From Jatrophihabitans endophyticus (GTDB lineage Bacteria; Actinomycetota; Actinomycetes; Mycobacteriales; Jatrophihabitantaceae), in NCBI RefSeq assembly GCF_900129455.1, contig NZ_FQVU01000002.1:248001-312000 (forward strand): a DNA stretch of 64,000 nt. The letters run 5' to 3'. The first letter of the stretch is position 1. Each line of letters opens with the position of its first letter. Below the pieces are notes generated by a model. That model was not told where the DNA came from. It saw only the letters and a program-made list of their open reading frames with translations, and did no database searches. Shown here one piece after another: positions 23,577 to 40,484 of this stretch. Made by a program: the position numbers and the translations under genes.

Positions 23577-23624
23577 GATGGAGCCGCCTCGGGGAATCGA
23601 ACCCCGGACAACCTCATTACGAGT
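23577..23624. other. attL, 48-bp core
   Basis: Exact copy of the 3' part of the tRNA-Thr gene at 40413-40460, extending through the encoded CCA into the anticodon loop. Sequence identity ends exactly at both sides (23576/40412 and 23625/40461 differ). Confidence 0.95.
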
Positions 23625-23868: not shown

Positions 23869-24519
23869 ATGTCAGAACGTACCGAGCAAGCCGGACAGTC
23901 CTCTCCCGCCATCGGCGGGCCGACCACGGACCTGAGCCCCGCCGCCATGCCCCCGTGTCCGTGGTGGTGCAGCGACACCAACCCCGACCACCGCACGGAC
24001 TTCGAGTCCTCGGACTGGAACGACCCGTCCGTGAAGTTCCGGATCCACACCCACGTCTTCGGGCGAACGGCCGCGGCCGTGGTCCAGGACGAGCGGCACG
24101 AGGCGGGCCGGGTCACCTTGGTACCGGCCTACGTCGCGTTCTACTACGACCAGGCGGAGACGCCGGAGGAGGCGCTGGATCTCGCCCGGGCGATCGAAGC
24201 GGCCGGCGATCTGCTGCGCAGGGTCGTCGAGGGGCGGGAACCGCCGAGCGCGGGCCAGGCTCCCTCGTGGGCGACTACCCACGAGGACGTCGAGGGCGGC
24301 ATCCGGTGGGAGCACACCGCAGTCAGCCCGGTCGGGCGCGCCGTCACGATCTTCGCCACCGACAGCGTCAGCATCAGTGGCGACGGAGCGGTCAGCCTCA
24401 CGCGGAGCCCCGTCGAGGTGTACGTCGGCGAGGACGACCGCGCGCTGTCCCCGCAGCAGGCCGCCGAGTTCGCTCAGACCGTGCTCGACACCGTTGCCAC
24501 GATGGGAGACGCCCGATGA
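23869..24519 (+). CDS. DUF6907-like hypothetical protein
   Basis: 216 residues from an ATG preceded by AGGAAGGCAGGA. The N-terminal block PPCPWWCSDTNPDHRTDFES and the later VYVGEDDRALSPQQAAEFAQTVLD resemble small actinobacterial proteins (DUF6907) found in phages and integrative elements. No catalytic motif seen; function unknown. Its stop overlaps the start of the recombinase gene (ATGA), so the two are probably co-expressed. Confidence 0.7.
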   Translation: MSERTEQAGQSSPAIGGPTTDLSPAAMPPCPWWCSDTNPDHRTDFESSDWNDPSVKFRIHTHVFGRTAAAVVQDERHEAGRVTLVPAYVAFYYDQAETPEEALDLARAIEAAGDLLRRVVEGREPPSAGQAPSWATTHEDVEGGIRWEHTAVSPVGRAVTIFATDSVSISGDGAVSLTRSPVEVYVGEDDRALSPQQAAEFAQTVLDTVATMGDAR

Positions 24520-25367
24520 CCCCCTATGACCCGGTACTCGACGAGTTCGAGCGGCACATGCTGACGAACAAGCTGTCACCGGTCACGATCAGCGACCGGT
24601 CGGAGTTCCTGCGCCGGTTGTCGGTCTGGCTGGCGCCGACGCTGCTGCTCGGCGCGTCGCCGGAGCAGCTCGAGCGGTTCCAGCAGTCCTACAGTCACCT
24701 CGCGCGGGCGAGTGTGGACGTGTACACCCGCCACGTCCGGGCGTTCTACGCGTGGGCGGTGTCGACCGAGCGCGTGCTGCGCGATCCGACGTCGAGGATG
24801 GTGCGGGTGCGCCCTAGGCAGGGGCTTCCTCACCCGATCGACGAGGGCGACCTGCGGACGCTGCTGGCATGCGCGACGGGTGGGCTTCGGTTGGCCTACG
24901 TCCTGGCGGCATTCGCCGGGTTGCGATGCGGTGAGGTCACGCGTCTGACGGGCCAAGACCTCAACCTGACGGCCCCGCAACCCACAGCCCTCATCCACGG
25001 CAAGGGCGGGTACGAGCGCATCGTCCCGCTGCTACCGCCAGTGGTGGCGGAACTCGTGCCGGCCTCGCGGCGCCGACTCGGCCCGATCGTGCTCAAGCGC
25101 GACGGGACGCCCTTCACGGCGTCGCAGCTGTCCATCCAGTCGAGCAAGTTCATGACCAGCATCGGTATCGAGTCGACGATGCACTCGCTCCGGCACTACT
25201 TCGCTACTGAGGTCGTCCGGATGACCCGGGACGTGCTGCTCGTCCAGCAGCTCCTCGGCCACGCGTCGCTGCAGACCACGCAGATCTACATGCGGGCATC
25301 CCTCAACGACGCGCACGAGCGCATGGCCGGCCTGGCAGCCACGGCGGGAGGCTTGTTAGCTAACTAG
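24516..25367 (+). CDS. Tyrosine recombinase, Xer-like, second recombinase of the element
   Basis: 283 residues. An N-terminal SAM-like core-binding domain (about 1-95) precedes a catalytic domain with the full set of residues: R137 (AGLRCGE), K163 (HGKGGYE), H223 and R226 (HSLRH), H249 (LLGHAS) and nucleophile Y258 (TQIYMR). It appears active. It differs clearly from the integrase at the right end in length and sequence and lacks that protein's N-terminal arm-binding domain. A perfect hairpin terminator follows 14 nt after the stop. Confidence 0.92.
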   Translation: MTPYDPVLDEFERHMLTNKLSPVTISDRSEFLRRLSVWLAPTLLLGASPEQLERFQQSYSHLARASVDVYTRHVRAFYAWAVSTERVLRDPTSRMVRVRPRQGLPHPIDEGDLRTLLACATGGLRLAYVLAAFAGLRCGEVTRLTGQDLNLTAPQPTALIHGKGGYERIVPLLPPVVAELVPASRRRLGPIVLKRDGTPFTASQLSIQSSKFMTSIGIESTMHSLRHYFATEVVRMTRDVLLVQQLLGHASLQTTQIYMRASLNDAHERMAGLAATAGGLLAN

Positions 25368-25433: not shown

Positions 25434-25619
25434 ATGACCACCCCGAAGCGCCCGGTCGAGACCGCCGAAGAGCGCGCGCAGCGGATCCGCGCGGAGGTCG
25501 CGACGTGGCCGCGGTTGACGTCGGAACGGAAGGCCGAGTTGCGGCGGTTGCTGTCGCCGGCGGCCGACCGTGTCCGTGCCCGTCTCGCAGCCGAGCAGAC
25601 CCGGCGGTCAGACAGTTAG
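25434..25619 (+). CDS. Small hypothetical protein, charged helical
   Basis: 61 residues from an ATG at 25434. It is rich in Arg, Glu and Ala (AEERAQRIRAEVATWPRLTSERKAELRRLL in two overlapping helical stretches) and predicted all-helical. Similar short proteins occur in actinobacterial integrative elements. Its stop overlaps the stop of the convergent DUF2283 gene by 4 nt. Function unknown. Confidence 0.6.
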   Translation: MTTPKRPVETAEERAQRIRAEVATWPRLTSERKAELRRLLSPAADRVRARLAAEQTRRSDS

Positions 25620-25945
25620 GCCGGCACGGGCGCGCGCATCCCCCCGGTGACCAGAGATCCGTCGCCGCTCTGACCGATGCGGAAGTACCCGGCAACCGAC
25701 GGGCGAATGGCGCGAAGCGCGTCGATCGCCTCGATCGGAACGTGGTACTCAGTGATGAGCCGCTGGAAGGGGATCTCAGCCTGCAGATCGAGGATTTCGA
25801 TGCCGAGCGCCATCGCGAACGCGTCCAAGTCGATCTGGACCTCGTCGGTGACCTCGACGGTCCGAGCGACCTCGCCGTCACAGAATCGGATGTAGGCGGC
25901 CTCAGCCGCCAGGTCGACGGTGGCAGTGATGTTGATGGCGGGCAT
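25616..25945 (-). CDS. DUF2283-containing protein, putative antitoxin partner
   Basis: 109 residues. The first 60 carry the DUF2283 pattern AAYIRFCDGEVARTVEVTDEVQIDLDAFAMALGIEILDL; the rest is an extra C-terminal extension. DUF2283 genes often lie directly downstream of DUF4258 genes and the pair has been suggested to act as a toxin-antitoxin system. Here it follows DUF4258 after 3 nt, on the same strand. Activity is inferred only. Confidence 0.78.
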   Translation of the reverse strand: MPAINITATVDLAAEAAYIRFCDGEVARTVEVTDEVQIDLDAFAMALGIEILDLQAEIPFQRLITEYHVPIEAIDALRAIRPSVAGYFRIGQSGDGSLVTGGMRAPVPA

Positions 25946-25948
25946 GAC

Positions 25949-26179
25949 TCAATCCTTCCATGCTACGGACTTGACGGTCACGTCATCCACAGCTAGTCCC
26001 GGGTGACGTACCCAAACCTTCAGGTCCCGTCCATCTACTCCAGGTCCGATGTAGCGGATGCTGTTCTTCGGTGTCGTCTCGTCTGAATGATGATTGCGTA
26101 AAGCCTCTGTTATGTCCAGCTCGGAAATCCCACGCTCACGCATCCGCACGCGGGCGTGCGGCAGGATCCGGAGTCTCAT
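25949..26179 (-). CDS. DUF4258 protein, putative RelE-like toxin partner
   Basis: 76 residues. The opening HARVRMRERGISELDITEAL and the later RYIGPGVDGRDLKVWVRH match DUF4258, a small family with a RelE/ParE-like flavour. Its ATG overlaps the stop of the DUF6941-like gene, and the DUF2283 gene follows, giving a three-gene operon. Toxin activity is an inference from gene pairing. Confidence 0.78.
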   Translation of the reverse strand: MRLRILPHARVRMRERGISELDITEALRNHHSDETTPKNSIRYIGPGVDGRDLKVWVRHPGLAVDDVTVKSVAWKD

Positions 26180-26577
26180 CGCGCCTGAGGCTGCAGTTCC
26201 ACATCGAAGGCCAGTCGGCGAACTTGCTCGCCGTCGAGCTCCACTAGCACCTCGTACAGGCCCGCCGCCGGAGTCGGAATGAGGGTGGTCAGCGCGAACA
26301 GTCGACCGACCTTGCCGTCGTATGGCCGACTGGCAGACGAGTCTGCAAGCGGCACTTCCATCGCCAGTTCGAAGACTGGCGCATTCCGAACTCGAATGGT
26401 CAGCTGATTCGGGGGTTCACCCTCCTGGGCGCGAACGCGGCCAGCAATCGACAGCAGATGTTGGCCCGGCAGCATCGGCACGGTCACGCTTGTGTAGCTG
26501 GCGTTCAGCACATTGAGGGTGCCGTTCGGCTGGATGCTGGCGAACTCAGCCAGAAACGCGTAGTCGAGTTCAGCCAT
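26176..26577 (-). CDS. DUF6941-like hypothetical protein
   Basis: 133 residues, predicted mostly beta. The pattern DYAFLAEFASIQPNGTLNVLNA at the start and FALTTLIPTPAAGLYEVLVELDG later resemble the DUF6941 family. It leads an operon with the DUF4258/DUF2283 pair (ATGA overlap). There is no membrane segment. Its role, possibly as sensor or binding partner of the pair, is unknown. The 227 nt upstream (26578-26804) contain no convincing gene and presumably its promoter. Confidence 0.65.
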   Translation of the reverse strand: MAELDYAFLAEFASIQPNGTLNVLNASYTSVTVPMLPGQHLLSIAGRVRAQEGEPPNQLTIRVRNAPVFELAMEVPLADSSASRPYDGKVGRLFALTTLIPTPAAGLYEVLVELDGEQVRRLAFDVELQPQAR

Positions 26578-26984: not shown

Positions 26985-27096
26985 AGCTACCCCCTTCGTT
27001 CGCCGACCTGGCGTCGGCGGGTGGACCGACCGTATGCGGCCGGTCCGACAGTTCCCACCACTCGACGGGCCTGGTCCCCCGGACTGCAAGGCTGAG

Positions 27097-30000
27097 TCAG
27101 CGTCGCCGGTCGTTCTTCTTGTTGCCCTTGCGGGACGCGGTGCCGACCTTCTTGCCGTCCATGTAGATGTCGAGCTTGATGTTGCGCAGCTCGGCGCGTG
27201 CCGCCTTCGCCATGACGCGTGCGGTGCGGTCCGCGCGGCGGTCCTCGGCGGCGATGTCACGCTTCAGGTCGTTGACCCGCCGCTGCGCGGTCGTCACCCC
27301 CGCCTTGTTGAAGGTGTCCGCGGCGAACGTCCCGAACGCCGACGACCGTTCGTTGATCGTCCGCTGCGACGACACCAGCGACGACAGGTCCGACGCGGAT
27401 GCGGACAGCAACGCCCGCACCTGCGGGTAGGCGCCCGGCCCGGCGTCGATGATCTGCTGAAGCATCGCCCGGCCCGTCTGCGACTTCCCCAGCTTCTTCG
27501 CCAACGCCCGCACCCCGGCCACGTACTTCGTGACGAGGAGTGCCTGTTGCCGGGCGGCGGCCTGCATCGACCCGAACGTCGGGGTGGCCTGCTGGTCGGT
27601 CACGCCAGCAGATGCGACGTTGAAGGTGCCCCGCGCGGCGTCGCGGGCCTGCGTGTACGTCGACGAGTAGGCGGAACGGGCGGCCTCGAGCTTGTCGTAG
27701 GCGGTGCTGTTCGAGCGGGACGGGGAGCCGAGTTGGGCGCGGAGCGCGTCACGGCGGCGGGTATGGGTGAGGAGCGCGGCGTCGAGCTTCCGCAGGTGGG
27801 CGAGGGCCCGGTCGGAGGCGCCGGCGTCGTCCATCTGGTCGTAGAGCCGCCGGAACGCTGCCCGCGCCTGGCTGGTGGTGCCGTCGACGGCGTCGCTGAA
27901 GGCGCGGAGGCCCTTGGTGTCGATCTGGGTGGTGAGCTTGAGGACGGCCTTGATGTCGGTGGCGCGGGCGTTCTGGGCGGCGGTGATGGTGTCGTAGGTC
28001 TTGCCGCCGTACCGGTAGTCGGCCTTGTCCTTCTTCCCGGACCCGCGGGTGGTGGTGATCTGTCCGACACGGCCGCCGGCGGCCATCGCGACGACGTCGA
28101 GGGTGGCGCCACGGTTCGCGGCTTCGAGCGCGGACCGGTTCCGCTTCGTGGCGTCGGCGGTCGAGATCCACTCCCCGTTGGAGAGGCGGTACGGCTGCCG
28201 GTAGGAGCCGTCGACGAGCATGGCGGGCACGTCGTCCGAGGTGCCAGTGCCGGGACCGTAGACCATGCCCACGTCGCCGCCGGCGGCCCGATGCACCGGA
28301 CCGCCCTTCGCCGCCTCGAACTTCTGCCCACCCTTGGAGCGGCCAGAGTCGCCCCCGGTCGAGACGGTGCCGTTGTGGTGCACCGTGACGTTCACGCTCT
28401 TGTCGTGCAGAGCGTTGAGGTAGTTCTGGACACGCTGAAGCGCGGACTCGGCTGGGCCGGTGAGCGCCGAGACCTGCGGAACCCGGTTCTGCTGCAACGA
28501 GTTGATCTGGTCGTTGAGGCGGGCAATCAGCGCCTTGCCGACGGCCGTGTTGGCCGTGACCCCCGGCACCTTCCCCTGCTTGATGGCGTTCACCTTCGCC
28601 GTCAGATCGCGAATGCGTGCCTGTGCCGTCGTGGTGTCGACTGTCGTCGCGATCTTCTTGGCTGGGATCTTGTTCAGATCGGACAGCGCGCGGTCGACTC
28701 GGCGTATCGCGCCCGCGGATGCGCCCATCGCCTTCAACCGTGCGCGTTCCTGCGTGAGGGCTTCGCGGGTGGCTTCGATGCCCTTTCGGGTCATCTTGGA
28801 GCCGCCGGATACGGCCTCGCCGAGAGCCTGCGCTGAGCGAATGGCGCTGTTCACGTTCTGCTGGTTGTTGCGTCCAGCCTCGGTACTCAACGACCACGCG
28901 GTGGCGTTGTCCTTGAGACCCTTCGTCAACGTGGCCAGCGAGTTCGCCTGCGCGATCCTCGCGTCCGCGATGTCGAGCGTCTCGCCGTTGAGCTTCTTGA
29001 ACGCCTGGTCGAGCAGCCCGGCGGCATCACTCGCGACGCGCATGGCCTGGGCCTGCGCGTTGGTCTGGTCGGTGTTCTGCTTCGCGGCTTTCGTGGCAGC
29101 GAGGTACTCGGCGCCGGTCATGTTCAGGGCGCGAGCCATGGCCTGCTGAGCGGGACTGCCGCCGGCAGCCAGTCGCACGCTCTCGGACTGCGCCTGGTTG
29201 TACGCCTTCTGGGCGTCGATGTTCTCGTGGAGAGACGCTCGGGTTGTCCGGAGCTTGTCCGCGAGGTCAACCGCCGCCTTCTGCGTCTCGTTGAGCTTCT
29301 GACCGCCCTTGTCCAGGTCGGCGAGGTTGTCCGGGAGCTTGTCGAGGCCAGCGATGTCGAGGAGGGACTGGTAGAGCTGGTCGAAGTCACTCTTGCTGCC
29401 GTTGACGGCGTTAGCGAGCGTCCCGTAGCTCGTGCCGAGCTGCTGATTGCCAGCGTGGAGTCGGTCGAGCACCTTGAGCGCGTTGTTGTCCTGCAGGGTC
29501 TTCGCCGTGGCCTGCAGGTTTGCGTTCGACAAGGCGTCGGTGGACTGCTTGACCGACTCCGTGTAGTTCTGATTCGCCTTCGTCGCGTCGTCTGTCTCAT
29601 CGGACGAGTCACCCATCGCGAACGCCAGTGATCCGAGGATCAGGACGAGGGCGCCGATGGGGCCGAGCGCGGCCCGCCACCCCATCGCGGCGACACGACC
29701 GGCCGCGACGGTGCGCGCGGCGGACGCTTCGGCCGCTGCAGCGGTCTGGATGGCCGCGGCACGGGCGGCGGCGACCTCTTCCGCCTTCGACGCGATGAAC
29801 GACGCTGAAGCGCCCTGCTGCGCACGCGCCGCCGTCAGCGCCGACTCGGCCTGCGCCAGGTTGTCTGCCGCGACCTGGGCCGCGGCCGCCGCGGAAGCCG
29901 ACCGCATCTCGAGGCTGGCCGCCATCGACGTGGCGCCCATCGCCTGCGCCCGCCCGGCGGCCTGCGTGTACGCCGACCCGATCGCGCCCACCACGGCCGT

Positions 30001-30996
30001 GGTAGCGCGCAACCCGAGCGACGCGACCCGCCACGCGACGAGGAGCGGCACGATGGCCCGCAGCACCGGCAGCGGAAGCGAGTTGATCGCCGACGACACC
30101 GCCGAGATCGCCTCGAGCGTCACGTGTCCCATCGGCCCGGCGCCCTGCCCGACATGCACGATCGTCTCGAGCAGGTTCCCGAGCGTCTGCTCCACGTTCG
30201 GCAACTCGGCCTGCACGTAGGCGACGAAGTCCTGCACACCGGTGGACGACGCCGCCCACCGCTCCAACCCGTTCGACCCGCGCACCAGCTCGGCGCCCAT
30301 GCTGGCGAACAACGGGTCCAGCTGCGTCAGGATGTTGAGCAGCGCGGGACCGGCGTTGCTCGCGATCTCACCGATCTGCCCCGCCATCTGGTGCGCGTCG
30401 GTGTTGATCACCTTGAACAGGGGTGCGGAGTTCGCCAGCCCGGACTCCAGTCCGTCGAGCAGCGGTACCGCGGTGACCGCCTTCAGCGTCGTCAGCTCCT
30501 GCTTCAACGTGGTCACGTCGTCGCCGTAGCGGGAGATGTCGAGGGCGCCGGACTTCGCCATGTCGCTGATGCCGGCGATCCCGAGCGCGGTCGACGCGAG
30601 GGTGGGGACGAGGCCGGCGAGGATGCCGCCACCCACCGCGGCCAACGGGGCGGCCGCCGACCCCAGCAGGACGATCGCGTCGAACAGCAACCCGACACGG
30701 GAGCGGGACGAGTCCGCGCTGCTGCCAATGCTGCCGATGTCGCTGCGGGTCTGCCGGGCGTTGTTGCGGAACCGGATGTCCGTCCGCGACCGTGCCCGGA
30801 GCTGGTCCAGTTCGGCGCGGATCGCGGCGAGCTGCGCCTGCGCGCCGTTGTCGTCGACCCGTACCCGCACGTCGATGTCCCGCTCGTGCCGCAGCGCGTC
30901 GAGATCCCGGCGGGCCTGCCGAATCGTCCGCGCCCACGCCGAATCGTCCAGGGACAGGTACGCCACGATATGGCCGGTCTCAGTCTCGCCGCTCAC
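27097..30996 (-). CDS. Phage tail tape measure protein
   Basis: 1299 residues. It begins with a conserved tape-measure opening (VAYLSLDDSAWARTIRQARRDLDALR), then long Ala/Gln/Arg-rich coiled coil, and hydrophobic stretches at about 105-150 and 445-465. The region near residue 910 (MVYGPGTGTSDDVPAMLVDG) followed by GEWISTADATKRNRSALEA is typical of actinophage tape measures. It sets tail length and is injected with DNA. Its start overlaps the preceding stop by 1 nt (TAGTG). No tail tube, chaperone or tail-tip genes are present around it. Confidence 0.92.
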   Translation of the reverse strand: MSGETETGHIVAYLSLDDSAWARTIRQARRDLDALRHERDIDVRVRVDDNGAQAQLAAIRAELDQLRARSRTDIRFRNNARQTRSDIGSIGSSADSSRSRVGLLFDAIVLLGSAAAPLAAVGGGILAGLVPTLASTALGIAGISDMAKSGALDISRYGDDVTTLKQELTTLKAVTAVPLLDGLESGLANSAPLFKVINTDAHQMAGQIGEIASNAGPALLNILTQLDPLFASMGAELVRGSNGLERWAASSTGVQDFVAYVQAELPNVEQTLGNLLETIVHVGQGAGPMGHVTLEAISAVSSAINSLPLPVLRAIVPLLVAWRVASLGLRATTAVVGAIGSAYTQAAGRAQAMGATSMAASLEMRSASAAAAAQVAADNLAQAESALTAARAQQGASASFIASKAEEVAAARAAAIQTAAAAEASAARTVAAGRVAAMGWRAALGPIGALVLILGSLAFAMGDSSDETDDATKANQNYTESVKQSTDALSNANLQATAKTLQDNNALKVLDRLHAGNQQLGTSYGTLANAVNGSKSDFDQLYQSLLDIAGLDKLPDNLADLDKGGQKLNETQKAAVDLADKLRTTRASLHENIDAQKAYNQAQSESVRLAAGGSPAQQAMARALNMTGAEYLAATKAAKQNTDQTNAQAQAMRVASDAAGLLDQAFKKLNGETLDIADARIAQANSLATLTKGLKDNATAWSLSTEAGRNNQQNVNSAIRSAQALGEAVSGGSKMTRKGIEATREALTQERARLKAMGASAGAIRRVDRALSDLNKIPAKKIATTVDTTTAQARIRDLTAKVNAIKQGKVPGVTANTAVGKALIARLNDQINSLQQNRVPQVSALTGPAESALQRVQNYLNALHDKSVNVTVHHNGTVSTGGDSGRSKGGQKFEAAKGGPVHRAAGGDVGMVYGPGTGTSDDVPAMLVDGSYRQPYRLSNGEWISTADATKRNRSALEAANRGATLDVVAMAAGGRVGQITTTRGSGKKDKADYRYGGKTYDTITAAQNARATDIKAVLKLTTQIDTKGLRAFSDAVDGTTSQARAAFRRLYDQMDDAGASDRALAHLRKLDAALLTHTRRRDALRAQLGSPSRSNSTAYDKLEAARSAYSSTYTQARDAARGTFNVASAGVTDQQATPTFGSMQAAARQQALLVTKYVAGVRALAKKLGKSQTGRAMLQQIIDAGPGAYPQVRALLSASASDLSSLVSSQRTINERSSAFGTFAADTFNKAGVTTAQRRVNDLKRDIAAEDRRADRTARVMAKAARAELRNIKLDIYMDGKKVGTASRKGNKKNDRRR

Positions 30997-31286
30997 TACG
31001 CGCCGTCCGGAAGATCGCGCAGTCGCGCCCGCAGCTCTGCATCAGTCCACGTCAGTTGATCGAGGAACGAAGCACGGCGCTCGTCGTCAACGATCGCGAA
31101 CGTGGCAAGCTCGGCCGCGGTCCACGCGAGCACAGCCTCGAAGTCCAGACGCTCCACCCGATTCCGACCGGCAAGCCGGCGCCGGATCATGGTGCGGACC
31201 TCCTCGAGGTCCCCCGCCGCCTGCAGCCGCATCGCGTACTGCAGAACGTCATGCACGGAGCGTCGGGTGCACTCGCCCGCCGTCAC
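30996..31286 (-). CDS. Hypothetical phage-operon protein, 96 aa
   Basis: Helical protein of 96 residues with the stretch VHDVLQYAMRLQAAGDLEEVRTMIRRRL and a C-terminal half rich in Leu and Arg. Its position just before the tape measure gene is where siphophages carry tail assembly chaperones, but no slippery frameshift site or sequence match was recognised. GTG start overlapping the upstream stop (GTGA). Confidence 0.65.
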   Translation of the reverse strand: MTAGECTRRSVHDVLQYAMRLQAAGDLEEVRTMIRRRLAGRNRVERLDFEAVLAWTAAELATFAIVDDERRASFLDQLTWTDAELRARLRDLPDGA

Positions 31287-31486
31287 GCGACGTCACCGTC
31301 CGCCCCGTTGGCACGGTCGGCGACGACGAGCGCCTCCCACTCGCGTGTCCCGACCTGGATGCAGCGCACACCCGGCCCATGCGGATCACCGACACCGACG
31401 ACGGTGTGCAGTTCACCGGGAGCGTGCCCGTCGACCGCGGCGTCCCGCAGCGGACCGCCGCCCACGACGACCGGGCCGGCGCTCAT
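31283..31486 (-). CDS. Small hypothetical phage-operon protein, 67 aa
   Basis: 67 residues from the ATG at 31486 that overlaps the preceding stop. Gly/Val-rich and probably beta (GPVVVGGGPLRDAAVDGHAPG, then CIQVGTREWEALVVADR). No family recognised. It is part of the coupled packaging/tail operon. Confidence 0.6.
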   Translation of the reverse strand: MSAGPVVVGGGPLRDAAVDGHAPGELHTVVGVGDPHGPGVRCIQVGTREWEALVVADRANGADGDVA

Positions 31487-32166
31487 GCCCGCGCCCCCTC
31501 GCCGGTCAGCACTCCGCGCGCTGCGGCATCCCACCCGCCGACACGGCCCGTGAGTGTGCTTCCCGCCAGCTGCCGCGAACTGGTCAGGGTGATCGACGAG
31601 AAGTCACGCACTTCGCCGACCACACCGGCCTCGACCGCGGTCGCGATCAGGACAGCAGGCGCCACGTCGGACACGTTGATGCCGCGATCCGGGATGCGGT
31701 AACCCGTCTCGCCCCCGTACATGGCGCCCAGCACCCCGAACGTGGACAAGGCTTCGGCGCCCGCCCGCTGCAACCGCACGTCGGCGGCGACCAACTCGTT
31801 CGAGTTGTGCCAGATCGTCGCGCTCCGTGCCGTGGCGCGCTTGGCCAGCGTGCGCAACGCATCTACCGCCGCCGCCCACGCCTGCACGAGCTCCGCGTCC
31901 GAGGTGTCGATGCTCGCGACCTGCTCGATCGTCTCCTGCGCCCTCTCGACGGCGAGTGCCCGCTCGGCCGCGGCGCGCTTCGTCGCCGCACCCGTTGCAC
32001 GGAGCCGCGCGAATCGCGAGATCCGCGACTGCTCGTCGAGCTGCTCGGCGGTGATCGTCTCGTCGCCGGCCTCGAGCCGCTGCTCGAACTCGACGACGAG
32101 TGCCTCGGCCTCTCGTGCTTCCTGGTCGGCCTGTTCGGCCGCCGCTACCGCGTCGTCAACGGTCAT
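31483..32166 (-). CDS. Hypothetical phage-operon protein with N-terminal coiled coil
   Basis: 227 residues. The first 110 or so are strongly acidic/alanine-rich coiled coil (AAAEQADQEAREAEALVVEFEQ). The C-terminal half is more globular (STFGVLGAMYGGETGYRIPDR and FSSITLTSSRQLAGSTLTGRVGGW-like). It occupies the place where portal, scaffold and capsid genes would lie in a complete siphophage but resembles none of them to my eye. ATG start overlapping the upstream stop. Confidence 0.65.
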   Translation of the reverse strand: MTVDDAVAAAEQADQEAREAEALVVEFEQRLEAGDETITAEQLDEQSRISRFARLRATGAATKRAAAERALAVERAQETIEQVASIDTSDAELVQAWAAAVDALRTLAKRATARSATIWHNSNELVAADVRLQRAGAEALSTFGVLGAMYGGETGYRIPDRGINVSDVAPAVLIATAVEAGVVGEVRDFSSITLTSSRQLAGSTLTGRVGGWDAAARGVLTGEGARA

Positions 32167-32303
32167 CGGGTCTGCTCCTTCTCGGCGGTCTTCGGCTTGT
32201 AGTGCTCCTCGACCGCCTTGGCCAGGGCGATCATGTTTTCGCCCGGCGACAGGCGCGGTTGTTCGTCGCCGTTGCCAGGGGTCTTGGTCTGTGCGCCGCT
32301 CAC
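32163..32303 (-). CDS. Very small hypothetical protein, 46 aa
   Basis: 46 residues from a GTG at 32303 with a good Shine-Dalgarno (CGAGGAGCG). It overlaps the genes on both sides by 4 nt. Hydrophilic with one short helix (GENMIALAKAVEEHYKPKTAE). Function unknown. Confidence 0.6.
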   Translation of the reverse strand: MSGAQTKTPGNGDEQPRLSPGENMIALAKAVEEHYKPKTAEKEQTR

Positions 32304-32692
32304 GGTTCGCTCCTCGTGGCTCGGATCAGTCCATCGGTGTCGATCAACAGGCACCGATCACTGACGCGGTGGCTGCGGACACGGCCAGATGCGGCCAACC
32401 TCCGGGCGCGGCGCTCGCCACACCCAGCACGCTCCGCAGCCACCGACGTCGGTTCCATGCCTGTCACGCTGTTCGTTGTAGCGGCCGAGTGTCCGCTACC
32501 GGACAGGTCAGCATCGGGGTCGTCGGCGACCGCCTGCAGCAGCACCAATGCACGCTCCACCTGCCGCGGAAACGACGGCACCGCGCCATCCACACGCGCT
32601 CGAGCCCGCAGATCACGCGTCACCGCACGCAACACCCACGACGCGACCCCAGGCGCACGCAGAGCGCCATCCAGCGGCTCGTCGCCGGTCAC
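32300..32692 (-). CDS. HTH-domain protein directly after terminase
   Basis: 130 residues from a GTG at 32692 overlapping the terminase stop (a GTG one codon earlier is possible). The C-terminal third, SVAAERAGCGERRARRLAASGRVRSHRVSDRCLLIDTDGL over about 40 residues, has the layout of MerR/excisionase-type winged HTH domains. It may be a DNA-binding regulator or a packaging accessory. A DNA-binding gene between terminase and tail genes is unusual. Confidence 0.65.
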   Translation of the reverse strand: MTGDEPLDGALRAPGVASWVLRAVTRDLRARARVDGAVPSFPRQVERALVLLQAVADDPDADLSGSGHSAATTNSVTGMEPTSVAAERAGCGERRARRLAASGRVRSHRVSDRCLLIDTDGLIRATRSEP

Positions 32693-34284
32693 CACGTGTC
32701 ACCCTTCTCGAAGCCCCCAGGCGTCTGCCACCACATGGCCGAGTCCTGCATCGGTAGCGCAGACCGCGGGACAACGAGCCCGCCGGCAGTCTCAACGACC
32801 TCGAGGTCATCTCGGTCGACACGCTCCCGAGCGGTCGCGCGGAACCGCGCGTAGGCCCGGTTCCAGTCATCGAACTCGCCGACCTGCGCCCAGAAGCTGC
32901 GACCCGGGTTGTGCCACGACGCCACCGCGAAGTCACTCGCGCACGACACCGCGTGCAGCAAGCTCATCGCGAAGTCGTCGTGCCCGAGCCGCTCCGGCAC
33001 GCTGATCCGCACCGCACCAGACTCGGTGTACTCGAACTGCAGCGAGTTCAACTGCCGCAGCAGATCAGGATGACGAGGCAACACGAGCCGCCGCTGCTGC
33101 AGCAGCGACTTGATCCGCCCGAACCCGGCCTGCTTCCGCCGGTTGTCGATCGACACCTCAGCCAGTGGAGTCGCCGGCGAGACGCGACGCTCCTGCAGCT
33201 CTCGGCGCAAGATCGAAGTGGCGGCATCACCGACACCGTTGATCTCGCTCGCGATCATTCTGACGTCGTAGACCTCGACCAGATCCGCGACATACGAGGC
33301 GAAGTCGTGCCACGCCCACCCCGAGCGGCCGGCCAGCCACGGGACGAAGTAGGCACGCTGGCCGACACCGAGGATCTCGTCGTTCAGGCCGAAGTCATCG
33401 AGTGCTCCGATGAGCGCGACGACGTTGGCGTCGTTCCGCAGCCCCCAGTCGATCCCGGCAACAACCGCCAGCGACCGCGTGTGCCCAGGACCGTCCACGA
33501 ACGGCGACGCCTCACGAGCCGCGTCAGCGTCCAACAGGTCGTAATCAGCGACCGCCTCCTCAAGCTCCTCGGCCGAGAAGTAAGCCTGCTGGTCGTCAAC
33601 CCACTCGGCCAGCACCTCCTGCCGGTACACCCACTCCGGATCAGTGCGCCGCCAGTCCTGCAACAGCTTGTCATCCACCAGCGGCGACACCTGCGACGGC
33701 CAATGGAACGACGCGTACCCCTCGGCCCGGTTCTCGCCGAGCCGGAACGTCTGCGCGAAGAACCGCTCCTGCGAGCCGTAAGGCGTCCCCGCCATCACCA
33801 CCTTCGAGCCCGGCCGGGCGATGATCGTGTACCGGATCGCCCGCCACAGCTCATCCGAGATCGACGCAGCCTCATCCAAGATCAACAGATCCACCGACGG
33901 ACCACGCGCACGCCGCTGCGACGCCGGAATGCACCGAATCTCCGACCCATTGCTGAGCGTGATCGTCGACTTGTTGTCGTCATCGACCGAGCCCCCCAGC
34001 AGCGGACTCGACGCCAGGTCGAGCATGTCTGCCAGCAGCTCCTTCGCCGCGTCCTCACCCGCCGACAACACCAGCACCCGCGCCCCCCGCCGAGTGAACG
34101 CCGTGTGCAGGGCGATGATCGCCAACGTCCGCGACTTCCCCGCCTGCCGGCCACACACCATGCACCGGGTACGTGCCGGCGACATCACCACCGTCTGCTG
34201 ATGCGGCCACAACGGCTCACCCACCAGCTGCCGCGCGAACTCCCGGGGATCGAGCAGCGACTCGACCACCCATACCGCCGTCAC
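32689..34284 (-). CDS. terL: Terminase large subunit
   Basis: 531 residues, full length. The N-terminal packaging ATPase has Walker A GRQAGKS at 45-51, Walker B VDLLILDEAA at 131-140 with the DE pair, and coupling motif AGTP at 165-168. The C-terminal RNase H-like nuclease begins with GIDWG (D279) and has further acidic residues in SEINGVGD. All catalytic motifs look intact. GTG start overlapping the small subunit stop by 4 nt. Confidence 0.95.
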   Translation of the reverse strand: MTAVWVVESLLDPREFARQLVGEPLWPHQQTVVMSPARTRCMVCGRQAGKSRTLAIIALHTAFTRRGARVLVLSAGEDAAKELLADMLDLASSPLLGGSVDDDNKSTITLSNGSEIRCIPASQRRARGPSVDLLILDEAASISDELWRAIRYTIIARPGSKVVMAGTPYGSQERFFAQTFRLGENRAEGYASFHWPSQVSPLVDDKLLQDWRRTDPEWVYRQEVLAEWVDDQQAYFSAEELEEAVADYDLLDADAAREASPFVDGPGHTRSLAVVAGIDWGLRNDANVVALIGALDDFGLNDEILGVGQRAYFVPWLAGRSGWAWHDFASYVADLVEVYDVRMIASEINGVGDAATSILRRELQERRVSPATPLAEVSIDNRRKQAGFGRIKSLLQQRRLVLPRHPDLLRQLNSLQFEYTESGAVRISVPERLGHDDFAMSLLHAVSCASDFAVASWHNPGRSFWAQVGEFDDWNRAYARFRATARERVDRDDLEVVETAGGLVVPRSALPMQDSAMWWQTPGGFEKGDTW

Positions 34285-34775
34285 GCCCCCTCACCCGCCT
34301 CGCGCGCATCCACCGCAGCCTGCGCATCCGACAGCAACTTCGCCATGTCGACCTTCGCCGCCGCAACGTCCTTCCCCAGCCGCGCCGCCGACAGCGGATC
34401 TAGGCCCAGCCGGCCCCGGTGCGTCAGCGCGGTCGCCTCCATCCGCCGCCACACCTCCAACGGCGGGGCCGTCCCCGGCTTCGGAGACTCCATCTGCCGC
34501 TCGATGGGCATGGCCTCCAGATACTCGGCAGCCCGCGCGCACTTCGCCTCCACCCGAGCCCACGCGTGCACCGCAGACGCGTACAGCGGCGCCCGCAGGT
34601 ACTCCGTCCCCGGCTGCTCGAGCAGCCGCGCCACCAACTCGAGCGCCAACGGCTCCACCTTCCGCGGCGACCTCGCGCCATGCTTCGTCGACAGCTCATG
34701 CCCCGGCGCGAACGGCGGCCGCTGCCCCGGGAACGCCGGCACCCACTCCTCTGACGTCTGACCCTCCCCGCTCAC
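34281..34775 (-). CDS. terS: Terminase small subunit-like protein
   Basis: 164 residues. The N-terminal FAPGHELSTKHGARSPRKVEPLALELVARLL is the pattern seen in small terminase subunits of actinophages, and the rest is helical. It should recognise the packaging site and load the large subunit encoded next. GTG start overlapping the upstream stop. Confidence 0.85.
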   Translation of the reverse strand: MSGEGQTSEEWVPAFPGQRPPFAPGHELSTKHGARSPRKVEPLALELVARLLEQPGTEYLRAPLYASAVHAWARVEAKCARAAEYLEAMPIERQMESPKPGTAPPLEVWRRMEATALTHRGRLGLDPLSAARLGKDVAAAKVDMAKLLSDAQAAVDAREAGEGA

Positions 34776-35053
34776 GGCGCGAACCGCTCACCGGGCGACA
34801 ACTGCTGAGCCCGCAACGCCTCGAGCACGTCCTCAGCACCCGTCCACCCGCCCGCCTCGACGCACTGCTCCCCGACCACACCCGCCAAGATCGCGGCCAG
34901 CTTCGCCAGCGCCGACACCACCTCGAACACTTCCGGCGGCAGCCCGTCGTACCGCCACAGGACGGGCACGTCCCCCCGCAACGACCCCACGGCCAAGTCG
35001 ATCGCCTCATGCGAGGGCGTCCCGTGGTTCAGCTGCATCGGCTGTAGCGGCAT
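34772..35053 (-). CDS. Hypothetical protein upstream of terminase, 93 aa
   Basis: 93 residues from the ATG at 35053, which overlaps the upstream stop (TGATG). Helical, with LPPEVFEVVSALAKLAAILAG and a C-terminal EDVLEALRAQQLSPGERF. No family recognised; conserved-looking small proteins of this type precede terminase in several actinobacterial prophages. Confidence 0.62.
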   Translation of the reverse strand: MPLQPMQLNHGTPSHEAIDLAVGSLRGDVPVLWRYDGLPPEVFEVVSALAKLAAILAGVVGEQCVEAGGWTGAEDVLEALRAQQLSPGERFAP

Positions 35054-35400: not shown

Positions 35401-35417
35401 GCGGCACACTCCGCGGC

Positions 35418-35912: not shown

Positions 35913-35927
35913 CCCGAGGTGCACGAC

Positions 35928-35948
35928 CACCTGATTTCGAATCAGGTG
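35928..35948. promoter_or_regulatory. 21-bp perfect inverted repeat
   Basis: Arms CACCTGATT and AATCAGGTG flank a TCG spacer, 16 nt after the HEPN-like gene. It could be a weak terminator or an operator for the next small gene. Confidence 0.5.
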
Positions 35949-36032
35949 CGACGCTCGCAGGCCCGGTGAACGCTGGCCTGCGAATCGACTGGTCACACGC
36001 TGGTCACGCACACACGCTGCGAGCATGCAGCG

Positions 36033-36254: not shown

Positions 36255-36330
36255 CGCGCGCGCGGCATCCGACAACATCGCACCGACAACAAGGCCCCGC
36301 CGGCCTGCCCTGAACTTGGGGCTGTCCGCT

Positions 36331-36405
36331 GTCCGCCCCTTAAAGGGGGCGGACGCGGACGGACATGTCCGGTGGGGGTGGACATGGGGCGGACATGTGG
36401 ACATC
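36331..36405. other. Candidate replication origin: hairpin plus iteron-like repeats
   Basis: A 9-bp hairpin (GTCCGCCCC at 36331-36339, GGGGCGGAC at 36346-36354) is followed by GGACATG at 36361, 36380 and 36391 and GGACATC at 36399. More copies lie inside the 3' end of the adjacent ATPase gene (36566, 36578, and GGACATC at 36622). Repeats beside a RepA-like gene suggest an origin; no protein-binding data. Confidence 0.45.
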
Positions 36406-37402
36406 AGGTCTCCTTGGGTGCTCGGTAGAACGGGCGCGCTGTTGTTCCGGTGTTGGTCAGCAGGCCCTTGGAAACAAGGCCGTTGAGTGCACGGTGGAAG
36501 GAGGCGGGGGACATCTCGGCGGTGGCGCGGAGGTCGGACTTGCTGGCGCCGGTAGCGCTGTGACCGGACATGAACGCGGACATGAGGCGTTGCTCGGAGC
36601 TTGTCGTGTCCGCGGCGTGAGCGGACATCAGGACGGCGCTGTCGAGGGCGTCCACGAGGGTGAGTGACACCCGGTCCTGCAGTGGTCCGTCCTTCCGCTT
36701 CGTCCTTTCAAGCGTGAGGTTCTCGGGCGTGCCGGTCGTCAGGTAGACGGTGTCGACGCCGGCCTCGAGCGCGCTGCTCCCTCGGACGGTCGTGCCGTCC
36801 TTTCCGGTGTGGTGGACGGCGAGCACGGTGCCGCCGCCGGTGGCGCGCTGGATCCGGTAGAGCGCGTCGACGGCGAGCCCCATGTCACGTGCGCTGTTCT
36901 CGTCTCCGCCTGGGAGGCAGCGCGCGAGGGTGTCGATGACGACGAGCCGGCGCCCGGCGGCGGCCGTGGCCAGTTCGGTGACGGAGTTGGCGTCCAGCAA
37001 GTTGATGGGTTCGGGCAGGACAGCGAGTCGATCCGGGTGGATGTCGTGGTGCCAGGTGAACTCCCAGGCTTCGAAACGCTGGTTGAGGCCGTAGGCGCCT
37101 TCGGCCGCTACGTACAGCACCGATCCGGTCTCGACGGGGCGCATCTGCCAGGCCTTGCCGGTGGCAACGCAGGCGGCCCAGTCCTGAGCGGTGAAGCTCT
37201 TCGCGGTGCCCCAGTGTCCGGCGAGAACCGCGACGCTGCGCAGGTCGACGGTGCGGTCGATGAGCGGCTGCGGTGTCGGCAGGTTCGTGAGGTCGGCCCG
37301 GGTGAGGAGTCGGTCGCGGAGCGGGGTGTTGCGCGATCGAGCGGTCGCACTGGGTGGCCCCATCCATGAGGCGTCGAGTTCGTCGACGGTCGGTTGTGTC
37401 AC
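36404..37402 (-). CDS. RepA/AAA_25-type ATPase, replication helicase
   Basis: 332 residues from the GTG at 37402, which overlaps the upstream stop. A RecA-like ATPase core has an atypical Walker A (AGHWGTAKSFTA near residue 75) and Walker B RRLVVIDTLARCLPGG. The C-terminal 80 residues contain a winged HTH (SKSDLRATAEMSPASFHRALNGLVSKGLL). It resembles RepA-like hexameric helicases of plasmids and phages and probably drives replication of the excised element. The long Arg-rich upstream in-frame stretch is not coding. Confidence 0.85.
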   Translation of the reverse strand: MTQPTVDELDASWMGPPSATARSRNTPLRDRLLTRADLTNLPTPQPLIDRTVDLRSVAVLAGHWGTAKSFTAQDWAACVATGKAWQMRPVETGSVLYVAAEGAYGLNQRFEAWEFTWHHDIHPDRLAVLPEPINLLDANSVTELATAAAGRRLVVIDTLARCLPGGDENSARDMGLAVDALYRIQRATGGGTVLAVHHTGKDGTTVRGSSALEAGVDTVYLTTGTPENLTLERTKRKDGPLQDRVSLTLVDALDSAVLMSAHAADTTSSEQRLMSAFMSGHSATGASKSDLRATAEMSPASFHRALNGLVSKGLLTNTGTTARPFYRAPKET

Positions 37403-37976: not shown

Positions 37977-38212
37977 CGCAGCACCTCGTCGGGAAGCATG
38001 ATCATCTGCCGGATTTCTTCGAGCGGCACGCCGTTCGCGAAAAGGGTGACGGCCTCGAGGTACAGCTCCCGTGGCGTCAGTCCGAATGTGCTCGGTTGAC
38101 GTGTGGCAGGGGTGGCCGCATCCTTGGCGGTGTCGGCGTGGTGGTCGGCATCTGTTGAGGAGGCCGGGCGTGGCTGCGCCTGGCCTCTTCGCTTGTCCGG
38201 GGGTTCGCTCAC
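37973..38212 (-). CDS. Small hypothetical protein of replication cassette, 79 aa
   Basis: 79 residues from a GTG. The first 40 are disordered and polar; the C-terminal part TPRELYLEAVTLFANGVPLEEIRQMI is a compact helical segment. Coupled to both neighbours. No family recognised. Confidence 0.6.
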   Translation of the reverse strand: MSEPPDKRRGQAQPRPASSTDADHHADTAKDAATPATRQPSTFGLTPRELYLEAVTLFANGVPLEEIRQMIMLPDEVLR

Positions 38213-38430
38213 GAGCCACCTGCCTCAAGGAGGCGGACTAGTTCGGCAGTGACGATGCGTAGCCTTCGTCCGATCTTGAGAACTTGCAGCGGGAAGTCGC
38301 CGCTCTTGTAGGCCGCGTAGGTGCCGTTCGCCCCGTATCCGAGCGCGGCACCCCCCTTGACGATCGGCACGGTCGGCGGCCAAGCCCTGATCTCTTCGAT
38401 GCTGCTGACTCGATCCACTGCTCGCGGCAT
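38209..38430 (-). CDS. Excisionase-like HTH protein
   Basis: 73 residues from an ATG. The arrangement IVKGGAALGYGANGTYAAYKSGDFPLQVLKIGRRLRI (about 37 residues) followed by VTAELVRLLE matches the MerR-like winged helix of AlpA/Xis proteins. It opens the leftward early operon opposite the repressor, the usual place for a directionality factor. It could also regulate the early promoter. Confidence 0.72.
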   Translation of the reverse strand: MPRAVDRVSSIEEIRAWPPTVPIVKGGAALGYGANGTYAAYKSGDFPLQVLKIGRRLRIVTAELVRLLEAGGS

Positions 38431-38547: not shown

Positions 38548-39099
38548 GTGGGACAACACCTTGACTGGGTCGAAGGCAACCGACTCGTCGCATCGATGGG
38601 CAGCGAGAACTACCTCGCCGAACGCATCACCACTGAGCGAGAAGCTCGGAACTGGTCGCAGTCCGAGTTGGCCCGAGAGATGGAGCGAGCCGGCTGCCGA
38701 ATACCGCAAACGGCTATCTCGAAGATCGAGAAGCCTCAACGCGGAGGGCGCCGTGACATCAGCGTCGACGAGGCGATCGGGTTCGCGCGGGTGTTCGGGA
38801 TTCCGCTCGGCGAGCTCCTACTGCCGATCGAGGCAACCAACGATCTTGAGGTGGCGAAGGACCTCGCTGCGGGCCCTACAGCTCTAGTAGCGCGTGACAC
38901 CGCCGTCGATACCTACGACCAGCTGGTGGGTCGTCTCCGCTTGCTGTACGCAACCGATCAGGGGTGGAAGGTCGCACTCGAAGCCGAGTTGGGGCGGGCG
39001 GTCGACGCCGCCAACACTGACGACGACGCCATGGTGATCGCCCGGCTGCAGTTCCTCCGGGACGTCGTGCTGATCAAGCCGAAGAGGGCCCAGCGATGA
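38548..39099 (+). CDS. XRE-family HTH repressor
   Basis: 183 residues from a GTG with Shine-Dalgarno AAGGAG. The HTH lies at about residues 25-80 (ITTEREARNWSQSELAREMER...TAISKIEK), with a C-terminal helical domain of unknown role. Its position, divergent from the early operon and overlapping the integrase by ATGA, makes it the likely immunity repressor. No LexA-like autopeptidase domain is visible. Confidence 0.85.
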   Translation: MGQHLDWVEGNRLVASMGSENYLAERITTEREARNWSQSELAREMERAGCRIPQTAISKIEKPQRGGRRDISVDEAIGFARVFGIPLGELLLPIEATNDLEVAKDLAAGPTALVARDTAVDTYDQLVGRLRLLYATDQGWKVALEAELGRAVDAANTDDDAMVIARLQFLRDVVLIKPKRAQR

Positions 39100-40484
39100 A
39101 GGGTTCTGTGACGAAGCGCTGCCCGTGCCCGGTGCAGCGGAACGCGCGCGGCGAGCGGATCGCTTGCAAGATCAAGCACGGATCGTGGACCTACGTCGCT
39201 GACGCCGGCCGTGACCCGGCCACCGGGCGCCGGCGTCAGCTCCGCGGCTCGGGCTACGCCACGAAGGGTGAGGCCGAGGCGGCGCTCGCCGAGCACGTCG
39301 ACTCCGTCCGCAAGGGCACCGCGACCCACGACGAGCGGCAGACCGTCGCGGCGTACCTGCGCGGGTGGCTCGAGCAGCGCGAGGCGAACGGCCTGCGCCC
39401 GACGACGCTGCAGTCCTACCGCCAGCACGTCGAGCAGCTGTTCGTGCCGCAGATCGGTCATCTGCGCCTGCGTGACCTCCGGCCGGGCCACGTCGAGGCG
39501 ATGTTCCGCGAGATCGCCAAGCCGCAGCCCGGCCGCCGGCCGCGCGGGCCGGCGAGCATCGCCCGCATCCACGCCACGCTGCGCAGCGCGCTCGGCGCCG
39601 CGGTGAAGCGCCGCCTGATCTCGTTCAACCACGCGGTCGGGATCGACCTGCCCAAGGCCCAGCGTCCGCGGGTGCAGCCGTGGCAGCCGGCCGAACTGGG
39701 TCGGTTCCTCGACTTCGCCGCGGCCGACCCGCTCGGCGCGCTGTTCGAGACGATGGCCGGCACCGGCCTGCGCCGCGGTGAGGCTGCCGGGCTGCGGTGG
39801 GTCGACGTCGACCTCGAGGCCGGGGTCGCGATCGTGCACCAGCAGGTCGTCGCCATCGACGACGGCAAGCCCTGCCCGCACTGCGGGGGCCGTCACCGCG
39901 AGGCCTCGTTTGGCCGGCCCAAGACCCGCAGCGGAGAGGACCGCGTCGTGGACCTGGACTCAGGCGTCATCGGCGTCCTGATGGCCCACCGCCTCACCCA
40001 GGACGCCCAGCGCGCCGCGTGGGGCGAGGCCTACCTCGACCACGGGTTGGTGTTCGCCCGCGAGGACGGCACGCCCTGGCCGCCTGTGCGCCTCACCAAG
40101 CGGTTCAACGAGCTCGTCCGGGCCGCAGGCCTGCCGAAGGTCAGCCTGCACGCTCTCCGGCACGGTCAGGCATCGCTGATGCTCGCCGCCGGCGTTCCCA
40201 TGGCCGTCGTGTCGAAGCGGCTCGGGCACTCGACGATCAGCCTGACGTCGGACACGTACTCGCACCTGCTCGAGGGGGTCGGCCGCGACGCCGCCGAGCG
40301 GGCCGCCGCGCTCGTCCCGAGAGCCCTGCGTGACCACTCGGTGACCACTCCGGCCCCGGAAACGACTCAGGCCCCCCGCCAGAGCGACGGAGGGCCCGGA
40401 ATCGCTGGGGTAGATGGAGCCGCCTCGGGGAATCGAACCCCGGACAACCTCATTACGAGTGAGGTGCTCTGCCGACTGAGCTAA
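39096..40484 (+). CDS. int: Phage-type tyrosine integrase
   Basis: 462 residues: N-terminal arm-binding domain (about 1-75), core-binding domain (about 80-185) and catalytic domain with R226 (GTGLRRGE), K276 (RPKTRSG), H352 and R355 (LHALRH), H378 (RLGHS) and nucleophile Y388 (SDTYSHL). An insertion with CPHCGGRH at 260-267 could bind a metal. The 3' end of the gene runs through the attachment core into the tRNA gene on the opposite strand, so the last seven residues are encoded by host DNA. It should insert the element into tRNA-Thr. Confidence 0.96.
   Translation: MKGSVTKRCPCPVQRNARGERIACKIKHGSWTYVADAGRDPATGRRRQLRGSGYATKGEAEAALAEHVDSVRKGTATHDERQTVAAYLRGWLEQREANGLRPTTLQSYRQHVEQLFVPQIGHLRLRDLRPGHVEAMFREIAKPQPGRRPRGPASIARIHATLRSALGAAVKRRLISFNHAVGIDLPKAQRPRVQPWQPAELGRFLDFAAADPLGALFETMAGTGLRRGEAAGLRWVDVDLEAGVAIVHQQVVAIDDGKPCPHCGGRHREASFGRPKTRSGEDRVVDLDSGVIGVLMAHRLTQDAQRAAWGEAYLDHGLVFAREDGTPWPPVRLTKRFNELVRAAGLPKVSLHALRHGQASLMLAAGVPMAVVSKRLGHSTISLTSDTYSHLLEGVGRDAAERAAALVPRALRDHSVTTPAPETTQAPRQSDGGPGIAGVDGAASGNRTPDNLITSEVLCRLS
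40330..40348. promoter_or_regulatory. Candidate right arm-type integrase binding sites
   Basis: GTGACCAC at 40330-40337 and 40341-40348, 11 bp apart, inside the 3' end of int and about 65 bp before the core. It matches the left pair in sequence and orientation. Confidence 0.5.
40413..40460. other. attR, 48-bp core
   Basis: Exact match to 23577-23624; lies within the intact tRNA-Thr gene and ends in the anticodon loop. The tRNA was preserved because the element carries the replacement 3' end. Confidence 0.95.

Follow-up and report, generated by a model that had tools for sequence, protein, structure and literature searches.

P4, the classical phage-inducible chromosomal islands (PICIs) and the Staphylococcus aureus pathogenicity islands (SaPIs) carry an integrase, a repressor and a replication gene and redirect the packaging of a helper phage. 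The same functions are found, or in the case of redirected packaging predicted, in an integrated element of Jatrophihabitans endophyticus that we describe here from a 64,000-nucleotide stretch of contig NZ_FQVU01000002.1 (positions 248,001 to 312,000; hereafter the window). We know of no case in which these classical satellites combine a terminase large subunit (TerL) with a tape-measure protein (TMP), as the window element does. The scaffolds and terminase small subunits (TerS) of P4- and PICI-type satellites are treated in the introduction of PMC10690885.

Among the nearest systems described are the phage-inducible chromosomal island-like elements (PLEs) of Vibrio cholerae (PLE11, PLE1 and PLE4), integrated satellites that also encode their own TMP (PMC12987554). 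PLEs supply the TMP with its chaperone, the helper provides the head and the larger part of the tail, and chimeric tails of different length have been shown. The TMP and baseplate hub of PLE11 replace those of the helper, giving tails that are 10 nm shorter, and deletion of tmp in three PLEs lowers transfer by 96 to about 99.9% (PMC12987554). The window element differs in residing in another phylum and in carrying its own TerS and TerL as well. Own packaging genes are shared with the capsid-forming PICIs (cf-PICIs), some of which are reported to have putative tmp genes (PMC12987554). However, cf-PICIs encode capsid, protease, portal and connectors (PMC10690885), none of which was found in the window element. 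The Streptomyces satellites MulchRoom and MiniFlayer likewise have actinobacterial hosts, but their genomes hold terminase, portal, capsid and scaffold genes and no replication genes (PMC10690885); the window element, by contrast, has a replication ATPase, and head genes were not found in it. We found no description of these elements in the open-access literature (preprints lay outside this search, and few subscription journals were covered), PMC12987554 and PMC10690885 being the nearest.

We lean towards reading the element as an integrated phage satellite that would send its DNA into a helper head with its own terminase and build a chimeric tail in which its own TMP is the ruler. There is good support for satellite status, whilst the chimeric tail is inferred by analogy with PLE11.

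Ends and gene content of the element

A perfect 48-bp direct repeat bounds an element of 16,884 bp (23577-40460; Table 1). The integrase gene overlaps the tRNA-Thr gene with its 3′ end and continues beyond the repeat. The locus has the general features of a satellite: it is discrete and integrated, with an integrase and attachment (att) repeats; it carries its own replication (AAA ATPase) and regulation (helix-turn-helix, HTH, repressor) genes; and it lacks the gene set of a complete virion, portal, capsid and tube genes not having been found in it. TerL, a single copy in the host genome, is identified with certainty from its sequence similarity. The library match of the window TMP is weak (phrog_7025, E 4.4e-5); blastp against the 805-aa TMP encoded in a related phage record (L028) gives E 4.5e-15, with 25% identity over 328 columns, and on this comparison the identification of the window TMP is solid.

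The only genes of at least 250 codons that a codon-based caller found in the element are those for two recombinases, the replication ATPase, TerL and TMP. Portal, capsid, tube and tail-tip genes were not found with PHROG, Pfam, hidden Markov models (HMMs) built from the clade, or gene calls, and the portal, capsid and tube genes that an ordinary temperate siphophage has between TerL and TMP were not found here, in contrast to L028/L112. An annotation gap or misassembly hiding head genes was considered and rejected: the element contains no N bases, and six uncalled open reading frames (ORFs) of 335-698 codons gave no PHROG match. The longer mechanically defined ORFs overlap called genes or sit at 35397-36404.

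Related elements in other genera

Relatives of TerL were sought in 397 genomes of the order, in virus contigs and in named genomes. Six genomes of the order (7 places) held a TerL at E 1e-40 or better. Virus contigs and named genomes added loci with 37-65% TerL identity among the matches listed, which came from Blastococcus, Klenkia, Rhodococcus, Arthrobacter, Microbacterium, Nocardioides, Pseudonocardia and Jatrophihabitans and from a metagenome-assembled genome (MAG) of Acidimicrobiia. A TerL alignment as query of genome contigs retrieved at least 22 loci; the window protein alone retrieved no relative. In a sample of the phylum searched at E 1e-60, only 1 of 396 genomes matched, the window's own, suggesting that the group is sparse or patchy. 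Loci with weaker TerL matches (L032-L085, L098-L107) stayed outside the element analysis, L025, L090, L094 and L097 were too partial or remote to class, and several handles denote the same element (L010/L027/L091; L009/L086; L013/L093; L015/L092; L089/L108).

Analysis of the homologues' neighbourhoods, one of the checks put forward in an earlier sequence-only reading of this DNA, showed that similar elements with TerS, TerL and TMP recur in several genera. There are at least 12 further such elements, one a 5.2-kb fragment (L023) and one with a damaged TMP start (L012). The 13 elements of this TMP type are the window element, L009, L010/L027, L012, L011, L013, L026, L029, L089, L095, L096, L030 and L023. 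Gene order varies among them, TMP preceding TerS in L029 and the coiled-coil gene preceding TerS in L026. The capsid type comprises L087, L088 and the fragment L021, each with a phrog_10 major head protein (E 1.4e-38, 2.6e-38 and 2.3e-37, respectively). A single Jatrophihabitans MAG contig (L015) represents a tail-fibre type (phrog_18703 tail fibre, E 8.5e-32; Pfam GDSL below cut-off). Lastly, the phage type comprises L022 (a 6.8-kb piece), L024, L028 (with an endolysin) and L031, all with a portal and the last three with a phrog_267 capsid. Phage-type records share homologous TerS and TerL with the window element, and L024 and L028 further have TMP and tail-completion genes homologous to those of TMP-type elements; these records differ in carrying a portal, and the gene for the 227-aa protein described below was not found in them.

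Portal and capsid HMMs built from clade genes were searched against 26 loci translated in all six frames; L010 and L027 among these are one element, and L097 is included. The portal HMM, built from L022 and L031, also matched L024 and L028 (4/26 loci, all phage-type), and the PHROG portal phrog_533 was found in the same four among 18 records, two of which (L089 and L108) are one element. The two capsid HMMs matched only their source loci, three phage-type and three capsid-type; therefore, the informative part is the silence of the TMP-type elements, none of which was matched by portal or capsid HMMs from related phages, although unrelated families were not tried one by one for each relative.

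The two Rhodococcus capsid-type elements (L087:4560-13184 and L088:2629-11818; 8.6 and 9.1 kb) contain an integrase, a replication ATPase, a capsid gene, TerS and TerL, with a scaffold-like gene recognised by eye and no portal found. They belong to the same TerL clade as the window element, and their capsid family differs from that of the related phages. One TMP-type element, L011, encodes a head maturation protease (7678-8595; phrog_15531, E 1.1e-23), and no capsid gene was found there.

Signs of mobility are spread across these relatives. Direct repeats bound the Blastococcus TBT05-19 element (47 bp, 98%; tRNA-Met; 15.1 kb), the Microbacterium ASV81 element (102 bp; tRNA-Tyr; 14.4 kb) and the Rhodococcus capsid-type elements of 8.6 and 9.1 kb (tRNA-Val and tRNA-Ser), and an Arthrobacter contig has a 46-bp repeat at both its start and its end. 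Carriers that can be cultivated include Microbacterium sp. ASV81, Arthrobacter terricola and Blastococcus. No convincing repeat was found for L011 and L013, and only repeats of chance size for L095. The 127 bases at the two ends of virus contig L030 are identical, the tail-completion gene lying at one end and TMP at the other. The contig therefore closes into a circle of 14,260 bp, so that the circular form of a TMP-type element has been assembled. Its serine integrase (phrog_95, E 1.6e-100) lies inside the contig, and phrog_533 portal was not found in it. The suspicion voiced in the sequence-only reading, that the window holds a helper-dependent element, is strengthened by the exact att sites, by the recurrence of similar elements in several genera and by this one circular form. 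L010, L011 and L013 use a large serine integrase (phrog_95) and sit beside genes that look Tad-pilus-like by eye, not at a tRNA site.

The N-terminal part of the window TMP is nearest to a group made up of L024, L028, L089, L096, L030 and L023. TMPs diverge far more than TerLs: the window element and Blastococcus L009 share 65% identity in TerL and in TMP only a 215-aa stretch at 31%, and L011 and L089 share 55% in TerL with a non-significant TMP comparison (E 0.75). Such a pattern would agree with TMP following the helper. Moreover, the best PHROG tape-measure matches differ among the elements (7025, 5448, 1533, 58, 9228 twice and 934), and that of the L096 TMP has no named function.

Small genes between terminase and tape measure

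Between TerL and TMP lies a run of five small minus-strand genes of 131, 46, 227, 67 and 96 codons, in which neighbours overlap. The sequence-only reading had seen here a block of small genes in place of a head module and a scarcity of head and tail genes. Both points stand: the five genes are confirmed, the first with 131 codons, and the search between TerL and TMP found neither a portal nor a capsid nor a major tail gene. The codon-based caller missed the 131-codon gene and gave the 96-codon gene a later start; the former call is supported because homologues occur in other elements. None of the five proteins matches a significant family in PHROGs or Pfam, the best scores both being for the 227-aa protein (PHROG phrog_15261, E 0.01; Pfam DraK_HK_N, E 0.043, below the cut-off).

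An HTH had been noticed in one of these genes, and it reappears in an Arthrobacter homologue of the 131-codon protein (HMM E 2.8e-8) that matches Pfam HTH_17 (E 2.2e-10). By HMM the family is present in L009, L011, L023, L015 and L089, and weakly in L096, L030 and L087. In Blastococcus L009 a WhiB-type regulator (9803-10069; Pfam E 6.5e-13) immediately follows TerL. Relatives of the 96-aa protein, like those of the 46- and 67-aa proteins, were not found in the 26 loci. A role for the 96-aa protein as a chaperone was considered and stays putative: the protein has no PHROG family, and its single-sequence model has a predicted local distance difference test (pLDDT) of 57. Set against the PLE arrangement, the window element has the TMP and beside it a neighbour with neither a family nor a good model. 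In L029 a tail assembly chaperone (phrog_3860, E 3.6e-30) directly precedes TMP, the pair described for PLEs (PMC12987554), and the same chaperone family precedes TMP in L024 and the L028 record. In L089, L023 and L030 a tail completion or Neck1 protein (phrog_5; E 4.3e-9, 1.3e-7 and 6.9e-10) directly precedes TMP; these proteins are 56-60% identical to one another, with relatives in L024 and L028. Ordinary head-completion or scaffold homologues, the outcome that the sequence-only reading had named as refuting, were thus found in part, for the position before TMP, where phrog_5 in these three loci is an ordinary head-tail part; for the 227-aa protein there is no known head, scaffold or tail relative.

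The long coiled coil that had been noticed in the 227-aa protein agrees with its AlphaFold2 model, in which long helices are predicted at residues 3-32, 40-84 and 91-127 (mean pLDDT 93-95 over residues 11-50; the prediction does not cover residues 132-227). Relatives were found in L015, L096, L030, L089, L023 and L013 (pairwise E 6e-30 to 3e-4); L026 is doubtful, with a pairwise E of 0.44 and a match only to the HMM that it helped to build. Among TMP-type elements this amounts to 6/13, window included, with L026 as one more doubtful case. L009, L010, L011, L012, L029 and L095 have, at comparable places, proteins of 237-351 aa judged coiled-coil by eye. Two tblastn queries found no relative in 50,697 phage records. 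The order sample gave matches in 3/397 genomes, each within one of these elements, the elements of G117, G319 and G287 going unmatched, and the virus contigs gave one match, a twin of L089 (by a single peptide pattern, which can miss members). Therefore, judged by sequence similarity, relatives of the 227-aa protein are seen only in such elements among the data examined. Remote links aside, we rejected the possibility that it is a small capsid protein or a known scaffold, there being no significant family, no phage relative and no significant BFVD match for its model of residues 1-131, and likewise the possibility that the scaffold-like proteins encoded ahead of the capsid in L087 and L088 are its relatives, as the 227-aa HMM has no match there.

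The remaining genes of the element are listed in Table 1. The adjacent DUF2283 and DUF4258 genes (25616-26179) are a putative toxin-antitoxin pair. A XerC-like second recombinase beside the integrase occurs also in L092:13322-14494, L027:12511-13647 and L030:2869-3660. Defence cargo was considered and rejected, since PADLOC on ten window proteins returned only HTH_VI (1.2e-4) and capH (0.0066), both hitting the repressor.

Table 1. Features of the J. endophyticus element, in window coordinates
Feature	Position	Strand	Evidence or remark
Attachment repeat, far end	23577..23624	.	48 bp, identical to 40413-40460
216-aa protein	23869..24519	+	sub-threshold DUF6907 match
Second tyrosine recombinase, XerC-like	24516..25367	+	Pfam Phage_integrase 3.4e-18
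DUF2283 protein, putative antitoxin	25616..25945	-	Pfam
DUF4258 protein, putative toxin	25949..26179	-	Pfam
DUF6941 protein	26176..26577	-	Pfam
Tape-measure protein, 1299 aa, intact	27097..30996	-	
96-aa protein where a tail assembly chaperone or tail-completion gene would stand	30996..31286	-	putative by position
67-aa protein	31283..31486	-	homologue not found in 26 loci
227-aa coiled-coil protein	31483..32166	-	relatives seen only in such elements
46-aa protein	32163..32303	-	homologue not found in 26 loci
131-codon protein, helical N-terminus and C-terminal winged HTH	32300..32695	-	homologues in other elements
Terminase large subunit TerL, intact (531 codons)	32689..34284	-	PHROG phrog_2 E 3.9e-41; Pfam Terminase_6N 5.4e-9
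TerS by position	34281..34775	-	no library match; homologue upstream of TerL in 26/26 loci
RepA/DnaB-type AAA ATPase, replication	36404..37363	-	longer reading 36404-37903: Pfam AAA_25 5.2e-37; PHROG DNA helicase 7.5e-37
73-aa protein, candidate excisionase/AlpA-like (by eye)	38209..38430	-	no Pfam match
HTH repressor, cI-like	38596..39099	+	longer reading 38548-39099: Pfam HTH_3 1e-7; PHROG transcriptional repressor 1.5e-9
Tyrosine integrase with arm-binding domain	39096..40484	+	Pfam Phage_integrase 1.4e-19; Arm-DNA-bind_4 7.1e-10
Attachment repeat, in 3′ part of tRNA-Thr	40413..40460	.	tRNA-Thr at 40415-40490, minus strand

Proposed cycle and competing explanations

We propose that the element would be excised by its integrase and copied by its own replication ATPase, after which its TerS and TerL would pump the DNA through the portal of a helper phage procapsid. 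Helper tube and tip proteins would then polymerise around the satellite TMP, giving a chimeric tail whose length is set by the satellite. Following the ruler logic (TMPs of 1299 and 805 aa), this tail is predicted to exceed the tail of an L028-like phage clearly in length. The small genes between TerL and TMP may serve the hand-over to the helper particle. The 131-codon HTH protein may regulate by binding DNA or be a packaging-site factor, the 227-aa coiled-coil protein may divert helper virion parts in a scaffold-like or adaptor-like manner, and the 96-aa protein may assist TMP as its chaperone or in completion. Helper dependence and packaging by the satellite's own motor are likewise proposed from gene content. 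The sequence-only reading had looked to the small genes for a possible effect on helper capsid or packaging, or for adaptors, roles that stay putative; most clearly, however, it is TerS and TerL that would act on packaging and TMP that would act on the helper virion.

Several observations weigh against this proposal. The cycle is read from genes and from the circular contig of one relative, and induction, packaging and virions are predictions. A resident helper prophage was sought in six host genomes and not found with the families tried: neither the HK97-type capsid (PF05065) nor the phrog_533 portal occurs there, and the only match, a PF04860 portal, lies on another contig in G004, one of these genomes. 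A relative of the 227-aa protein was not recognised in six of the 13 TMP-type elements (L009, L010, L011, L012, L029 and L095), and a BFVD search with its model, residues 132-227 being unmodelled, gave 87 matches at E up to 10 and none at 0.001 or below, the best being a minor tail protein (E 0.6). The model of the 96-aa protein is poor. The tail-fibre-type contig has a tail-fibre-like protein where others have TMP (L015/L092:9892-11385) and contains no TMP. Moreover, some elements' TMPs are related, 19/91 pairs having E below 1e-10 in a comparison of 14 TMPs (four partial, two from phage-type records), and their PHROG match lists overlap, which makes the TMPs divergent and not proven unrelated.

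The TerL tree belongs with these points. This maximum-likelihood tree had 27 rows, with L036, L038 and L041 as outgroups and L097 left out; 12/24 inner branches are well supported, and L038, on a very long branch, was placed inside the ingroup. The window element and L086 form a clade (100/100), as do the capsid-type elements (100/99). TMP-type elements and phage-type records are intermixed, and no single TMP-type clade is seen: the TMP-type label requires 8 changes, at least 4 of them forced by well-supported branches, and 113/500 shuffles are as low. TMP-type elements may therefore be several parallel lineages, and on this mixed tree the satellites and phages of the clade have swapped or lost genes several times. 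The kinds distinguished here are thus gene plans and not single lines of descent. In Blastococcus saxobsidens a 1.3-kb stretch with the coiled-coil module is 95.5% identical in DNA between two elements (L010:12819-14116 and L012:12154-13448) whose TerLs are 47% identical and whose TerS regions are 82% identical in DNA. This near-identity despite 47% TerL identity indicates that modules move between co-resident elements. The L012 copy lacks about 240 bases that span the TMP start and is probably broken.

A broader version of the satellite reading is that these elements belong to a hitherto undescribed group of actinobacterial satellites that shares TerS and TerL, each member swapping a chosen part of the virion. 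We hold this only tentatively and give it less than even weight. The swapped part would be the capsid in the 8.6-9.1-kb Rhodococcus elements, TMP in the 14-17-kb elements and a tail-fibre-like protein in one Jatrophihabitans element. The 227-aa protein would then be a new, satellite-only kind of assembly-diverting coupler, linking the satellite TMP (tail length and DNA entry) to the helper tail.

Amongst competing explanations, the one that fares best also takes the element to be a satellite. TMP could be a decoy and not built in: perhaps together with the 227-aa protein, it would poison or compete with helper tail assembly, the satellite's own particles carrying the helper TMP. Gene content fits this equally well, and satellite or island systems that block tail assembly have been reported (PMC12987554; PMC11364771). 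However, TMP is long, intact and different between elements, as a working ruler matched to the helper might be, and a decoy would not need the chaperone of L029 or the tail-completion protein of L089, L023 and L030. We therefore think the decoy explanation unlikely.

Decay of a prophage by deletion of its head and tail-tube genes is less probable still. TerL, TMP and tail-completion genes do have similar counterparts in phage-type records within this TerL clade, satellites may well originate by such loss, and the B. saxobsidens copy L012 is visibly damaged at the TMP start. Yet in the window the 1299- and 531-codon genes are intact and the att repeats exact, a similar gene set recurs across many genera and integration sites, a relative has a circular form, and the 227-aa gene has no relatives seen in phages. 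Finally, an autonomous integrative element using terminase and TMP for gene-transfer-agent-like, tailocin-like or cell-to-cell transfer functions fits the failure to find a helper prophage in the host genomes with the families tried, but it is very improbable, since relatives encode virion parts (capsid proteins; a head maturation protease) and, with no tube, baseplate, capsid or portal gene found, a particle of the element's own is unlikely.

Returning to the satellite with a chimeric tail, the gene plan of TerS, TerL and TMP without head genes is a variant of a known satellite strategy, found so far in Actinobacteria, and about half of these elements can be recognised by the 227-aa gene. It was only in 2026 that satellites, the Vibrio PLEs, were reported to make chimeric tails, and the authors suggested that its use may be broader (PMC12987554). 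The elements described here suggest that the chimeric-tail strategy may operate in another phylum, with the satellite's own motor, without a head and with TMPs that differ strongly. Two questions thereby become testable in cultivable soil actinobacteria: why the tail ruler is replaced, and how the satellite TMP would outcompete that of the helper.

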